A DNA stretch of 21,124 nt from a virus: positions 1 through 21,124 of the IMG/VR virus record IMGVR_UViG_3300036985_004809. One strand, 5' to 3'. The position numbers were made by a program, and so were the translations under genes. Of the stretch, positions 8,359-21,124 are shown piece by piece. Within the stretch, counting starts at the first letter, position 1, and each line of letters begins with the position of its first letter. The notes under the pieces are model-generated. The model was not told the DNA's origin. It saw only the letters and a list, made by a program, of their open reading frames with translations, and searched no databases.

Positions 8359-8757
8359 ATGCCCTATGTGTCTACCGTTGTTGGACCTACGACCTCTGTA
8401 ATCAAAGGTCGCGCGACCTATCGCTGGACTATCAGCGAGACCGGTGCGGCACCCACCGACACTTGGACGATCACCGGCGCGCCGGCGGTCGGGACGATCT
8501 CGCTGTACCGCGCAAACCTGACCGCAGGCACTGGGGTCACGATCAACCCTCGCTTGGGTCGCACCCTTGCTTTTACGACCTCGACTAACGACGTGATCGG
8601 CGTGTCGGCCACCACGGCGGCCCTCGTCAACGACGGCACCAGCCTAAAGTACTCCGGCCTGACTGCCGGTAAGATCTTCGGGCGCTCTTTGCCCAGCAAC
8701 GCCGCTGCCGACCATTCGATCTCGACTGAGATTGTAATCGTGGAAGGTGTGGAATGA
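8359..8757 (+). CDS. Small beta-rich virion protein (132 aa)
   Basis: The protein is almost entirely short beta strands and turns rich in Thr, Ser, Gly and Ala (ATYRWTISETGAAPTDTWTI, AVGTISLYRANLTAGTGVTINPRLGR). It ends with a strand at the extreme C terminus (DHSISTEIVIVEGVE). No catalytic motif, signal peptide or membrane segment is present. GGAGAG lies 7-8 nt before the ATG. The stop overlaps the start of the glycine-rich gene by 4 bp (ATGA), so the two are probably co-translated and may assemble together. A head or neck decoration protein is the most likely role. Confidence 0.6.
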   Translation: MPYVSTVVGPTTSVIKGRATYRWTISETGAAPTDTWTITGAPAVGTISLYRANLTAGTGVTINPRLGRTLAFTTSTNDVIGVSATTAALVNDGTSLKYSGLTAGKIFGRSLPSNAAADHSISTEIVIVEGVE

Positions 8758-9650
8758 GTTGGTCGCAAGCCTCGGGCGCGTCCTCGGGCGCGGCTACGCT
8801 CCCCACCGGTTTCATGGCCCAACAATACGGTGTTGGATCAATGGCGGATCTCACCGTTGGGACCGGCACTATCACCACGCTGGCCAAAGACAGCTATTAC
8901 AACAACGTCACGATCCAAGGCACTGGCACGCTAAAGACCGCGGGCTGGCGTCTGTTCGTAAGTGGCACCCTTACAATCTCAAGCGCGGGTAGCGTCAACG
9001 ACGACGGCCTAACGTCCACAGGCACCAGCGGCGGCGCTGGTTTGGCTTCACGCGGCTCTTTGGGTGGCCAGTCTGGAGCGGGCGCTAACGGCATCATAAG
9101 CACGGGCAACGGTGGCGCGGGCGCGGGCGCGGGCGCGTCCTCAATGAACAACATCGGAACGCTCCCGCTCGGTGGCGCGGGCGGCGCGGGCGCGTCGGTT
9201 CAGATTGGTGGAGCCGGTGGTTCTGCAACCGGCGGGACCACGCTTCAGTCTATCTGGGGCTCGTGGGACAACGGGCGCATGAACAGCGGCGTGGTTTTCA
9301 CCGGCGGCGCTGGCGGCGGTTCGGGGTCGAGCTCCTCCGCTACGTCCGCGAGCTCGGGCGGCGGCGGGTCAGGCGGCGGGGTTGTTTGGGTAGCGGCTAA
9401 GGCCGTTAGCAATGCTGGCCGAATCTCCGCTAACGGCGGGAACGGCGCGGCGGCGGTCGGAACCAACAACGCTGGCGGCGGCGGCGGCGGCGGCGGCGGT
9501 ATTGTGGTTTTGATCACCGACACGCTTACCAGTCTGGTCGGTACGGTCACGGCCAACGCCGGCTCCGGTGGGACCGCTGTTGGCACCTCGCTCCCCGGCG
9601 TGGCTGGCGTGACGGGCGCGGTCTGCATTATCGGGATGAACGGAACGTGA
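8754..9650 (+). CDS. Glycine-rich virion protein, adhesin-like
   Basis: A 298-aa structural protein. Residues about 30-85 form a beta-solenoid-like unit (GTGTITTLAKDSYYNNVTIQG, TLKTAGWRLFVSGTLTISSAGSV) that I recall in many phage glycine-rich proteins. Residues about 88-265 hold repeated Gly-rich blocks of the GGAGGxG type (TGNGGAGAGAGA, LGGAGGAGASVQIGGAGGS, GGAGGGSGSSSS) and a run of nine Gly before IVVLITDTL. Such blocks can pack as polyglycine-II helices, as in the T4-like S16 adhesin. It lacks signals for secretion or catalysis. The gene sits between neck genes rather than beside tail-fibre genes, so it may form collar or neck fibres. It overlaps both neighbours by 4 bp. Confidence 0.72.
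   Translation: MSWSQASGASSGAATLPTGFMAQQYGVGSMADLTVGTGTITTLAKDSYYNNVTIQGTGTLKTAGWRLFVSGTLTISSAGSVNDDGLTSTGTSGGAGLASRGSLGGQSGAGANGIISTGNGGAGAGAGASSMNNIGTLPLGGAGGAGASVQIGGAGGSATGGTTLQSIWGSWDNGRMNSGVVFTGGAGGGSGSSSSATSASSGGGGSGGGVVWVAAKAVSNAGRISANGGNGAAAVGTNNAGGGGGGGGGIVVLITDTLTSLVGTVTANAGSGGTAVGTSLPGVAGVTGAVCIIGMNGT
9474..9500 (+). repeat. (GGC)8-GGT microsatellite encoding Gly9
   Basis: Eight uninterrupted GGC units and a final GGT run in frame through the glycine-rich virion gene and encode nine consecutive glycines. Perfect trinucleotide repeats can change length by replication slippage without breaking the frame. No functional proof is available. Confidence 0.85.
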
Positions 9651-10141: not shown

Positions 10142-10648
10142 ATGCCAGAATCTACTGTGATCCGTACGAAGCGCGACGGCCAAATCCTACTCGCCGACAA
10201 CGGCGCGGGAAACACCTACACCATCGTCAGGGAAGACGGCAGCTTCACGCTGAACTTGCCCGATCACTCGATTGTCCACGTCCTTGATCGTGGCGTAATC
10301 GGCGCTATCCCGATGATCCGCATCGGCGATGAAGCGGTGATGAGCGGCGGTTTCAGCGCCTACCTGAGCGACTTGGGCGCGACTGCAAACAACTACGTCA
10401 CCCTCAACGACCTCATCATGCGTTTTACGGCGCGGTATGTCGCAACCAATTGGGTGTCTACGATGGGATCCAACAGCGACGTCTTTACGGTCACGATCAC
10501 CTACACCATCGACGGCTCGCCGTTTGGTGAGGCAGACAAGTCTCTTGTGTTGCCGTTCTGCGTGGTGCGCGGCAACATTGCCGAAGGCGACCCCAACAAG
10601 TTTGCCGTGACTTTTACCTCGTACGCCGTCCGCCCCACCCTATCGTAA
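10142..10648 (+). CDS. Probable major tail tube protein
   Basis: A 168-aa beta-rich protein proposed to polymerise into the hollow tail tube around the tape measure. It starts with short strands and turns (TKRDGQILLADNGAGNTYTIVREDGSFTLNLPD), then VHVLDRGVIGAIPMIRIGDEAVMSGGFSAYLSDL, a helix-like segment (NNYVTLNDLIMRFTARY), and finishes with a beta sandwich half (FTVTITYTIDGSPFGEADKSLVL, GDPNKFAVTFTSYAVRPTL). The 'input residues, base domain, small C-terminal beta unit' pattern and the position after the terminator candidate support it. AGAGGTG precedes the ATG by 6 nt. Tail tubes diverge strongly, so a second minor tail protein cannot be excluded. Confidence 0.66.
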   Translation: MPESTVIRTKRDGQILLADNGAGNTYTIVREDGSFTLNLPDHSIVHVLDRGVIGAIPMIRIGDEAVMSGGFSAYLSDLGATANNYVTLNDLIMRFTARYVATNWVSTMGSNSDVFTVTITYTIDGSPFGEADKSLVLPFCVVRGNIAEGDPNKFAVTFTSYAVRPTLS

Positions 10649-10663
10649 TCAGGAGCCACCAAC

Positions 10664-11209
10664 ATGGGCAACGCATCCGCCTCCGTCAGTCTGCAAATCA
10701 CCGCCCGCGACGTCCTGAACTCGGGACTGTCTCGCGGCGTCATTCCGATCCAGTTCGCGCAAGTGCTCGAGCTTAACAGCGGCCTCACCGACGCAAACAT
10801 CGACCTCGCTTGGTCGGTCACTCGCGTGGCCATGCCCGCAAGCGCCACAACCAATATGGACCTACACGGCGCGTTGAACGACTCGTTCGGCAACGTGGTG
10901 CAGTTCCATGAGGTGGTGTTGATCGCATTGGTCAACAACCGCGCCGACGCTGCGGCGTACCTGCTGCTCGCTCCCGCAGCTTCCAACGGGTTTGGCCGTC
11001 TGACCACGTCCAAGGGGTTTTGGCCCGCCGACATTGCAGCGGACGGCGACCAAGGCAGCATCGTGGGGCCGTCGTCGTGGTTGTGTCTGTACGATCCCAC
11101 TGGTGTGCCGACCGCAGCGGGGACTGCGGACATCCTCTCGATCACCACCAGCGCCGTCGTTGGCGCGACCAACGGGTGGTCAATCTTGATCCTCGGTCGC
11201 TCCGCTTAG
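10664..11209 (+). CDS. Beta-rich virion protein of the tail region (181 aa)
   Basis: The central block (MDLHGALNDSFGNVVQFHEVVLIALVNN, then AAAYLLLAPAASNGFG) has the pattern 'L-D-FGN-V-F--V--I---N--A--L-----ASNGF', which I recall from small structural proteins of environmental phages. It is followed by strands ending in SIVGPSSWLCLYD and GWSILILGRS. No helix-rich stretch, membrane segment or active site is seen. It has its own AGGAG 8-9 nt upstream. It may be a tube-decorating or minor tail protein; the exact role is not known. Confidence 0.6.
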   Translation: MGNASASVSLQITARDVLNSGLSRGVIPIQFAQVLELNSGLTDANIDLAWSVTRVAMPASATTNMDLHGALNDSFGNVVQFHEVVLIALVNNRADAAAYLLLAPAASNGFGRLTTSKGFWPADIAADGDQGSIVGPSSWLCLYDPTGVPTAAGTADILSITTSAVVGATNGWSILILGRSA

Positions 11210-11240: not shown

Positions 11241-11642
11241 ATGCACGCCCACTCCCCCGACCTCGCACTTAAAATCGCCGCCATCGAGCGTGAGCTCGAC
11301 GTCATCCACGTTGGATGGCGCGACAAGGCGCGGTTCGATCACGTCGCGTACGACCTCAAAGCTCGTATCAAATGGTGCCTCAAGCGCCTGTCGTTGCTGT
11401 GTGAGGGCAACGACTACGACGTGCTCATCGTGCGTGACGCCCGCAACTCGCAGCAGTGCTACGCACACCCGGTCCTCCCGGCTACCCACCGCTACGAGGC
11501 GGTCACCCGCGAGCCTCCATCCCCCCTCGGCGTGCTCCCTCCGATGCCGATGGACGTAGAGACTCCCCGCGACGTCGGGGAGCTCGCTTTGGGTAGCAAC
11601 ACCGACCGCGAGCAGCTGCGGCAGCTGGGCGGTGCCGAATGA
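11241..11642 (+). CDS. Uncharacterised tail-module protein (133 aa)
   Basis: Residues 1-60 are helical and charged (DLALKIAAIERELDVIHVGWRDKARFDHVAYDLKARIKWCLKRLSLL), and the C-terminal half is Pro-rich and extended (PPSPLGVLPPMPMDVETPRDV). No family is recognised. It lies between tail tube and tail chaperone and ends in an ATGA overlap with the chaperone, so the two are probably co-translated. It has a strong ribosome-binding site (AGGAGGG about 8 nt before the ATG). It may be a chaperone partner or a tube-associated protein; this is only an inference from position. Confidence 0.72.
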   Translation: MHAHSPDLALKIAAIERELDVIHVGWRDKARFDHVAYDLKARIKWCLKRLSLLCEGNDYDVLIVRDARNSQQCYAHPVLPATHRYEAVTREPPSPLGVLPPMPMDVETPRDVGELALGSNTDREQLRQLGGAE

Positions 11643-12112
11643 AGACGCGCTCCAAGCCACTGGTGCTCCCCGTGCCGCTCCCTGACCGGTACTGGCAGCA
11701 GACTATCGAGGACCGGGGCGTGCTGACGTTCCGTCACCCCTACTACGGGGTGGCTTCGGCGGTAGTGCAGTGCCTGCTCGCTCACCGTACCGACGACGTG
11801 GATCTCAGCCCGCAGGCCACTGCGGAGCGGATGCTGCCGATGTGCGGACTGGTGATTGGAGTGTGCTGGTACGACCACTCGCTCGAGCTCGAGACCCAGC
11901 TGGACCTCGGCAAGCTCGGCGATGCCGACCTTGTGGCCTACGGCCACCGGGTCTGCGAGGAGCTACAGGATGCCGGGTGGGTGTTGCTCGACCTCGTCGA
12001 GCTGCTCGGTGGCATCGCGCCGCAGCTGTACCAGCGGCAGCTGCTGCTCAACATGGCAATGGCACGCTCCAGTTTTTCCGCAGCCCTTCCGGTAGACTCG
12101 ACGGCCTCCTAA
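11639..12112 (+). CDS. Tail assembly chaperone, short (zero-frame) form
   Basis: A 157-aa protein in the place of lambda gpG, between tail tube and tape measure, expected to bind the tape measure during tail assembly. It has an N-terminal beta part (PLVLPVPLPDRYW, GVLTFRHPYYGVASAVVQCLL) and a helical C-terminal half (TAERMLPMCGLVIGVCW, LGDADLVAYGHRVCEELQDAGWVLLDLVELLGGIAPQL). The zero-frame tail after 12076 (SAALPVDSTAS) is short and looks non-conserved. A second open frame at -1 extends 242 nt past this stop, as in phages that make a frameshifted G-GT product. The start overlaps the previous stop (ATGA). Confidence 0.72.
   Translation: MKTRSKPLVLPVPLPDRYWQQTIEDRGVLTFRHPYYGVASAVVQCLLAHRTDDVDLSPQATAERMLPMCGLVIGVCWYDHSLELETQLDLGKLGDADLVAYGHRVCEELQDAGWVLLDLVELLGGIAPQLYQRQLLLNMAMARSSFSAALPVDSTAS
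12073..12077 (+). promoter_or_regulatory. Candidate -1 ribosomal slippage site (T5)
   Basis: Zero-frame codons AGT TTT TCC let the P-site tRNA-Phe move from TTT (12074-12076) to TTT (12073-12075), while TCC becomes TTC in the A site. It is not a textbook X-XXY-YYZ heptamer. A possible stimulator stem, CGGCCTCC (12102-12109) with GGGGGCCG (12137-12144), starts 24 nt downstream, further than usual. Confidence 0.4.
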
Positions 12113-12354
12113 CGGAGCACGGCGCACGACACCTGGGGGGGCCGCACGCCGCCTACAACCTACCGACAGAGGAATATGTGGATCTCGTCGCGCACATCAT
12201 CACTCGCGACTCCCCGGATGGGTGGCAAAACACGCTCGCCCCGGTGAGCGCGAGCGACCACGTCTACATGAGCAACGTGCGCTCTAAGCCCGCCAGCCCT
12301 GCCCGCCCCAGTGATCCAGCCCTCGCGGCGTTCCACGACTGGGCGACACGGTAA
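12076..12354 (+). CDS. Tail assembly chaperone C-terminal extension, -1 frame
   Basis: A 92-aa segment with normal codon use and no plausible separate gene fills the 241 bp between the zero-frame stop and the next gene, in the -1 frame relative to 11639. It reads FRSPSGRLDGLLTEHG at its start and later EEYVDLVAHIITRDSPDGW and DPALAAFHDWATR. Slippage on the T5 run at 12073-12077 (zero-frame codons AGT TTT TCC) would join it after codon 146, giving a 238-aa fusion comparable to lambda gpGT. A GTG at 12178 behind GAGGAA could start a separate 58-aa protein instead. Its stop overlaps the next ATG by one base (TAATG). Confidence 0.6.
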   Translation, partial: FRSPSGRLDGLLTEHGARHLGGPHAAYNLPTEEYVDLVAHIITRDSPDGWQNTLAPVSASDHVYMSNVRSKPASPARPSDPALAAFHDWATR

Positions 12355-12806
12355 TGGGTTTTGAGTACCCCGTGCGGCTTGACAGCATCGACACCTACCG
12401 GTCGTCGCGGCACGGGTCGTTTCGGTTTTTGGAACTTGAAGAGCTGCAAGTGCTCGACAACTACGCGAGCGAGATCTTAAACGAGATTGAAGACCAGTGG
12501 CCGGTCGATACCTCGACGTCGAGGGACTCGTTTTCGTACACCTTGCTGTCGGATGGAACCACGGGTTTTACCATCCAAAACGACTGCGACTATGCCGAAT
12601 ACATCACGGAGGCGGGGACTACCCCCGTACGCGATAACGGCACCCCGCTGTTCGACACGTTGATCCCAAAAGTTCTGTCCAAATCCAACCCCACCGTCGT
12701 CAAAATGCTTGACGCGATGCGGGTGGTCACCGACTCCGTCGAGGCGCGGTTGTCGAGCACCCCAGCAGCAGCTGCTCGACCACGGAGGCCGCGTGGCAAT
12801 CGTTGA
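12354..12806 (+). CDS. HK97 gp10-like neck / tail completion protein
   Basis: A 150-aa protein with the typical layout of the HK97 gp10-like family, which helps join head and tail. The first helix is followed by a PVDT-type block (EIEDQWPVDTSTSRDSFSYTL, about 43-63; family pattern P-V-D-T-[GS]-x-[LS]-R-x-S), then a strand GFTIQNDCDYAEYITEAGTT (family pattern N-x-x-x-Y-A-x-Y-[IV]-E-x-G-T). Next come a turn (TPLFDTLIP) and a C-terminal helix. The C terminus is basic and Ala/Pro-rich and overlaps the next gene. Such genes normally precede the tail tube; here the gene follows the chaperone. The start overlaps the TAA of the chaperone extension by one base. Confidence 0.66.
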   Translation: MGFEYPVRLDSIDTYRSSRHGSFRFLELEELQVLDNYASEILNEIEDQWPVDTSTSRDSFSYTLLSDGTTGFTIQNDCDYAEYITEAGTTPVRDNGTPLFDTLIPKVLSKSNPTVVKMLDAMRVVTDSVEARLSSTPAAAARPRRPRGNR

Positions 12807-20376: not shown

Positions 20377-20664
20377 ATGCCCGAAAGCACTATAGACCGC
20401 CTGTTTGCGATGTTAGAGGCTCAGGCCCGGCTGGCGACCAAAGAGCGGGGGGCGCTGACCGATGCGTTTGAGCGGCAGATCACCGGCTTAAGGCTCGAGT
20501 TGCGGATCATTTTTATCGTTACCTCGGTGATCGTGCTTGCCCTGTCTGGTATCGGCGTCCGCCTCGCCAGCCCTGCTGGGTCAGTCACGACGACGGCGTT
20601 GGGCGCGTCAGCGTCGGAGCCGGCAGAACCGGCGGCACCGTTAGGCGATCACTTGACTCCCTGA
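20377..20664 (+). CDS. Small membrane protein, probable holin or lysis accessory
   Basis: A 95-aa protein with an amphipathic, coiled-coil-prone N terminus (IDRLFAMLEAQARLATKERGALTDAFERQITGLRLEL, about 6-42), one transmembrane segment (IIFIVTSVIVLALSGIGVRL, about 44-63) and an extended Ala/Pro/Glu/Ser-rich C terminus. This order of coil then single membrane helix resembles XhlA-type and related small lysis proteins. It precedes an amidase gene, which supports a lysis role. GGAG lies 7 nt before the ATG. The last 16 bp overlap the convergent amidase gene. The 45-bp gap before it contains CATAAT (20332-20337), a possible -10, without a convincing -35. Its C terminus could also be a spanin-like part. 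Confidence 0.62.
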   Translation: MPESTIDRLFAMLEAQARLATKERGALTDAFERQITGLRLELRIIFIVTSVIVLALSGIGVRLASPAGSVTTTALGASASEPAEPAAPLGDHLTP

Positions 20665-21124
20665 CTCGCAGCGAGGACCAGCTGCATGTAGTGATCCCAT
20701 GGCCAGTGCGCCCCGGGGTCAGTGTGGGTCACTCCAGGCACCTCGACGTGCCCAACGATGTGCTCGCGGTCCACCGGGATCGCAAACTTGCGGCACAGCA
20801 CAGCAGCGCAGCGCGCCGACGCCACCAGCATCGCCTCCGGCCACGCGGTCTGCGAGGCGTAGCCTTCGTGTTCGAACCCGATGGAGCGGTCGTTCCACCC
20901 GCGCTCCGTCGAGCTGCCCGCGTGGTAGCACTTGCGTTCGTCGGGAACCATCTGGCATACGTCGCCGACGCGGCTGAACAGGTAGTGCGCGGCGGTCGGG
21001 ACTTTGCGCCCCGACGTCTGGAACCATGCGATGGTGCCCGCAAACGAGCCTTCCATCGTGTGGATCACCAACCTGTCGATTTTGATCGAGGGCTTGCGCG
21101 GGTACATCGTGTCGTAAGCGGCGA
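20649..21124 (-). CDS. N-acetylmuramoyl-L-alanine amidase (Amidase_2 endolysin), 5' end cut by window edge
   Basis: This enzyme cleaves the bond between MurNAc and L-Ala in peptidoglycan for lysis. Numbered from the ATG at 21107, zinc ligands are expected at H16 (LVIHTMEGS), H120 (GHVEVPG) and D130 (HTDPG); the catalytic Lys of AmpD-like enzymes is replaced by H128, as in other HTDPG-type phage amidases. AAHYLFSRVGDVCQMV and SIGFEHEGYA are standard conserved blocks. The frame stays open to the window end (AAYDT before M) and no ribosome-binding site precedes the ATG at 21107, so the true start probably lies outside. It is the only - strand gene and overlaps the holin candidate tail-to-tail by 16 bp. 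No cell-wall-binding domain is visible in the covered part. Confidence 0.9.
   Translation of the reverse strand, partial: AAYDTMYPRKPSIKIDRLVIHTMEGSFAGTIAWFQTSGRKVPTAAHYLFSRVGDVCQMVPDERKCYHAGSSTERGWNDRSIGFEHEGYASQTAWPEAMLVASARCAAVLCRKFAIPVDREHIVGHVEVPGVTHTDPGAHWPWDHYMQLVLAASQGVK

Follow-up and report, generated by a model that had tools for sequence, protein, structure and literature searches.

Comparative evidence for a programmed -1 frameshift signal kept in a probable tail chaperone gene across an undescribed group of phages

The frameshift heptamer of phage lambda itself is G_GGA_AAG. Frameshift genes in the SEA-PHAGES collection are mostly those of tail chaperones, and at GGGGGAA sites re-pairing in the second codon through a G-U pair has been argued (PMC10885494). 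Slip tetramers shift modestly in E. coli, where U_UUU ranks third among them and the six best reach 0.26-5.6% with a strong stimulator; the usual spacing to the stimulatory structure is 5-8 nt (Sharma et al. 2014, PMC4066793). We describe here a locus in an uncultured phage that is of a known kind, that of lambda's G/GT trick, and that has an unusual slip site. Comparison with relatives gives good support for a conserved programmed -1 frameshift signal, in what is probably a tail chaperone gene, of a phage group that has not been described. Very probably, programmed -1 ribosomal frameshifting lets a single start yield both G (157 aa) and a G-T fusion (238 aa).

The window, by which we mean the whole stretch of DNA that was analysed, is a virus record of 21,124 bases from IMG/VR with a GC content of 62%. 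The zero-frame gene G stops at TAA 12110-12112, and the -1 frame has no stop across the end of G until a TAA whose last base (12354) is the A of the next gene's ATG (Table 1). An open -1 frame segment beyond the chaperone stop and a length of 238 aa for the predicted fusion had both been given in a sequence-only reading of the window, and both were confirmed. The same layout recurs in 12 other contigs with purifying selection downstream in the -1 frame, so that at the level of sequence comparison it is more than chance. The fusion length was recomputed, a slip at TTT 12074-12076 joining T after residue 146 of G (146 + 92 = 238 aa). Inside T, GTG 12178 could start a 58-residue fragment consisting of T only.

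Table 1. Coordinates of G, T, the shift signal and the neighbouring genes in the window
Feature	Coordinates	Strand	Basis or remark
G, zero-frame gene, 157 aa	11639..12112	+	ORF; homologues in relatives
T, -1 frame extension, 92 codons + TAA 12352-12354	12076..12354	+	-1 frame pN/pS; kept in L058 and L059 lineages
Shift site T_TTT_TCC	12073..12079	+	frame-0 codons TTT TCC; -1 codons TTT TTC
14-nt block TTTTTCCGCAGCCC (shift site, spacer, start of 5' stem arm)	12073..12086	+	invariant in 10 aligned clade sequences
5' arm of predicted stimulatory stem	12083..12090	+	folds; starts 6 nt after TTT codon
3' arm of predicted stimulatory stem (G-run)	12135..12142	+	folds and pairing conservation
Next gene, ATG overlapping T stop	12354..12806	+	weak match to tail completion/neck family
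Tape measure protein gene, 588 aa	13248..15014	+	homologous to L059 tape measure protein

Protein searches of the viral collection were used to identify relatives and gave nine contigs with both G and T, one of which (that of L007) ends inside T. The neighbour gene at 12354 was then used as bait and brought in three more distant contigs, L058, L059 and L060. In 13/13 contigs, the window included, and in three deep lineages, T follows the G stop in the -1 frame, and T_TTT stands where the frames switch. Since L010 resembles L012 and L059 resembles L060 in the G/T region, the independent lines are fewer than the contigs. Identity of G to the window protein falls from 93% to 43% (L019), 27% (L059) and 23% (L058), and at the last of these the homology of G itself is not significant (hhalign probability 12%). 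In both distant lineages T can still be identified (hhalign E 3e-8 and 3e-7). The reading of this locus as a programmed -1 frameshift, made earlier from the window's letters, is supported by this comparative evidence: a separate T gene with a conserved start was looked for in the relatives and was not found, and no start codon for T is conserved between lineages. The zero-frame stop of G is kept in differing forms among the relatives, its retention in simulations being not significant for any single sequence (0.18-0.60). One contig, IMGVR_UViG_3300011114_000947 (L004, L005; 32.8 kb), has both of its ends within the T segment, which may mean that the genome closes into a circle of about 33 kb. 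Searches of named phages by tblastn, run with the G and T proteins from the window, from L058 and from L059, gave no relative, and matches of T to Vibrio phages (E 0.5) were taken as chance. Two scans of prokaryote genomes likewise found no relative and so pointed to no host. A DNA pattern scan for the slip block and the G-run returned, as true matches, contigs of the window's own group, the remainder being unrelated.

Values of pN/pS were calculated by frame over nine sequences; those from sequence pairs depend on one another, yet the frames differ widely. Upstream of the T run, G has a frame 0 pN/pS of 0.28-0.32, and in the 60 nt that directly precede the run frame 0 has 0.28 against 2.69 for frame -1. 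Between the start of the run and the G stop this is reversed, with 0.24 in frame -1 and 1.12 in frame 0. Three successive segments after the run have -1 frame values of 0.24, 0.17 and 0.28, the second of them reaching from the G stop to GTG 12178. Downstream of the run, purifying selection is thus seen in the -1 frame only and is lacking in the other two, and the zero-frame tail of G past the run is not conserved as protein. The contrast therefore places the switch at the T run.

The T5 run (12073-12077) lies in the frame-0 codons AGT TTT TCC, and the proposal that the slip site is here is supported by the presence of T_TTT at every switch point. In-frame T_TTT occurs at 13 among 6355 codons of the tallied window genes, and T_TTT_TCC at the shift site only. 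The block TTTTTCCGCAGCCC is unchanged in the window's clade even at silent positions, although L009 differs just upstream (TGC for CAG). In the -1 frame its codons TTT TTC CGC AGC are fixed in four of four cases, against 6 of 31 other T codons at which the residue is invariant. No X_XXY_YYZ heptamer was found in the 11 overlaps scanned; T_TTT is the sole X_XXZ motif common to all of them, and as a zero-frame Z_ZZN tetramer it is present inside each. The window clade and L059/L060 carry T_TTT_TCC, whereas L058 has T_TTT_ACC; accordingly, the X5Y2 pattern X_XXX_XYY (TTTTTCC) is present in the former and absent from L058 (TTTTACC). The L059 site reads GAT TTT TCC GAT, in a contig where the -1 frame opens only 9 nt upstream of the run, and the L058 site reads AGT TTT ACC GCT and is the lone X_XXZ in an overlap of 169 nt. 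Re-pairing of tRNA-Phe after a -1 slip, from TTT to TTT, which the sequence-only reading had already suggested, fits all three lineages.

The nearest stem had been placed 24 nt downstream of the site; this was wrong, and the stem that begins 6 nt after the TTT codon had been missed. Among the nine clade sequences folded, the main helix begins with base 11 of the block (the first T being base 1), and the stem has 7-8 bp. In the lower helix, 96% of cells are paired and there is one compensatory change from A-U to C-G, which divides two groups and may be a single event. Sliding the partners by one base lowers whole-structure pairing from 86% to 51-54%. The inner helices are less well kept, and in the window the pairing of the 3' arm is one base out of register relative to its relatives. 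In all six clade contigs tested, the 60-nt region falls within the most stable 0-8% of places. The window's own stem is weaker (z -0.55; 7.5% of random places are as stable), as are those of L013 and L059. Structure at a spacing of 5-8 nt is found in the clade, at 6 nt; L058 has an unrelated 12-bp hairpin at the corresponding position, 4 nt after TTT (z -2.3; top 1.3% of 38-nt pieces), and L059 only a weak hairpin. RNAalifold further predicted pairs between the shift-site bases and an invariant TGGA-type sequence lower down; since those pairs never vary, they are uninformative.

An identical fusion would be produced if RNA polymerase added one U at the T5 run, so that some mRNAs encoded it in a single frame. 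Bacterial polymerases do slip where a T run is long, and slippage at T5C5 occurs in one IS element with a hairpin just upstream, but high-efficiency slippage is described at nine T, none was detectable at T5C5 without special context, and the known T5C5 case deletes a C, which is the wrong frame for G/T (PMC5009743). Moreover, the run in L058 is of four T only, and the conserved stem lies downstream, where a ribosomal stimulator belongs, polymerase slippage at four or five T being unlikely without an upstream hairpin; we therefore regard transcriptional slippage as improbable. Of nearly the same low standing, and marginally lower, is internal initiation, by which T would be a separate protein made, for instance, from GTG 12178. 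This codon and the SD-like GAGG/GGAGG ahead of it are kept across the whole window clade. Among the ALTERNATIVES, internal initiation fails on two counts, the onset of selection well ahead of GTG 12178 and the lack of this codon in the distant lineages: the stretch just upstream of it has the strongest -1 frame selection of all, and L058 and L059, which lack the GTG, have no start before the conserved T core. An internal start also leaves the invariant T run unexplained.

Two further explanations rank below these. By a +2 slip, tRNA-Phe would move from TTT 12074-76 to TTC 12076-78 and the fusion would be one residue shorter. Judged from the letters, tRNA-Phe could re-pair perfectly at the TTTTTC of the window clade and of L059, but L058 has TAC as its +2 codon, with which this tRNA does not pair; +2 shifting is rare, and the stem and its spacing are those of -1 signals, so that we hold this to be very improbable. 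Almost no credence is given to an assembly or sequencing error, or a recent frameshift mutation, that split one long gene. Nothing speaks for such an event beyond the single window, whereas the frame break stands at the identical place in the 12 other contigs, conservation is confined to the -1 frame with the zero-frame tail left to drift, and a zero-frame stop is retained, in differing forms. For a sequencing error in particular, comparison with the relatives amounts to exclusion.

The identification of G as a tail assembly chaperone is probable, and draws on its position, on the layout and on a moderate fold match of a predicted model, not on sequence homology. Neither G nor T had a match in Pfam, PHROGs or the named phage records searched, G had none among the Pfam and PHROG chaperone families in particular, and a PDB sequence search gave none. 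Tail chaperone families diverge fast, and an absent family match thus does not exclude membership. In a viral model library, the sole significant match of G was an uncharacterised marine virus protein. The model of G (pLDDT 83) had no significant Foldseek match in the PDB; its best fold matches were 5ir0 (Z 6.0), the HK97 tail assembly chaperone 2ob9 (Z 5.0) and 3fgx (Z 4.8), with unrelated folds at Z 3.0 or less and with the 2ob9 and 3fgx scores below the tool's reliable level. The 2ob9 alignment covers 97 residues of G at an rmsd of 5.0 and 12% identity, which is modest for a helical protein. The model of T (pLDDT 70) was too poor for a structure search. The top match, 5ir0, is a functionally uncharacterised protein, ORF19 from a PICI-like element of Vibrio cholerae, and may itself be related to tail assembly chaperones.

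The two overlapping frames lie upstream of a tape measure gene, with two genes intervening and the tape measure gene in synteny: T is followed by the gene at 12354, by a gene conserved with L059 and by the tape measure gene. The first of these matches phrog_5 with E 0.017 in the window and 0.0055 in L059. The window's tape measure protein is homologous to that of L059 over 183 aa (E 6e-8), in the C-terminal third only, and the L059 protein matches PHROG tape measure families (E 6.8e-12). Candidates for the tail tube protein are encoded at 10142-10648 and 10664-11209. Elsewhere in the window, a 298-aa protein very rich in glycine and alanine is encoded between structural genes (8754-9650), and an endolysin-like amidase gene lies on the minus strand at the end of the structural module (20649-21107), opposite to the latter.

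We hypothesize that programmed -1 frameshifting would proceed as follows. A ribosome at TTT 12074-12076 would be delayed by the stem-loop based 6 nt further on, and tRNA-Phe would slip back by one base to pair with TTT 12073-12075. Where the site is T_TTT_TCC, as in the window clade and L059/L060, the next tRNA, tRNA-Ser on TCC, could also re-pair with TTC via one G-U pair. Reading would then continue as TTC CGC AGC and on to 12354. The majority of ribosomes would make G and a minority the G-T fusion. If roles are divided as in lambda (PMC5009743), G would form a coat around the tape measure protein, and recruitment of the tail tube subunit would fall to the T part. More tentatively, and with considerable doubt, U_UUU_[U/A]CC_G might form a distinct bacterial class of -1 signal for tail chaperones, in which a single tRNA-Phe slip, tuned by the conserved CCG and by lineage-specific stems, sets the G:GT ratio and has been kept over deep divergence instead of a heptamer. 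Only T_TTT and a stem at a similar position are common to the three lineages, which makes it possible to test what the signal minimally requires. The locus is also a case where standard heptamer searches would fail.

With this locus, a phage group without prior characterisation joins those that appear to use G/GT frameshifting. Lambda G/GT is alike in having a short gene upstream of the tape measure gene, a T extension and a helical G protein, and its -1 shift near the 3' end of that gene is matched by a probable one in the window (PMC5009743). The window phage differs in lacking an X_XXY_YYZ heptamer, in its conserved stem just downstream and in the two genes between T and the tape measure gene, and there is no detectable sequence homology. 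To the HK97 tail assembly chaperone, the resemblance of G is at the level of fold and too weak to prove descent. The Z_ZZN tetramer signals of IS elements share U_UUU, the re-pairing by one tRNA that is proposed here and RNA structure 5-8 nt downstream (Sharma et al. 2014, PMC4066793); here the gene is a phage structural gene and not a transposase, and the CC(G) that follows is also conserved. The 'fivetwo' X5Y2 sites reported from SEA-PHAGES with PRFect share X_XXX_XYY and one possible G-U re-pairing in the second codon, but only GGGGGAA was seen there, whereas the present site is TTTTTCC and L058 does not fit X5Y2 (PMC10885494). In the Rab-GDI displacement factor gene of Podospora anserina, U_UUU_UCC, a close RNA structure and a -1 shift like the one proposed here recur (PMC5009743), but the gene is fungal, the ribosome eukaryotic and the structure a pseudoknot 2 nt downstream, with no relation by descent. 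Since U_UUU, U_UUU_UCC and X5Y2 sites have all been described (PMC4066793, PMC5009743, PMC10885494), the suggestion of a novel slip signal was too strong: the shift site is uncommon, yet every aspect of it has precedent.
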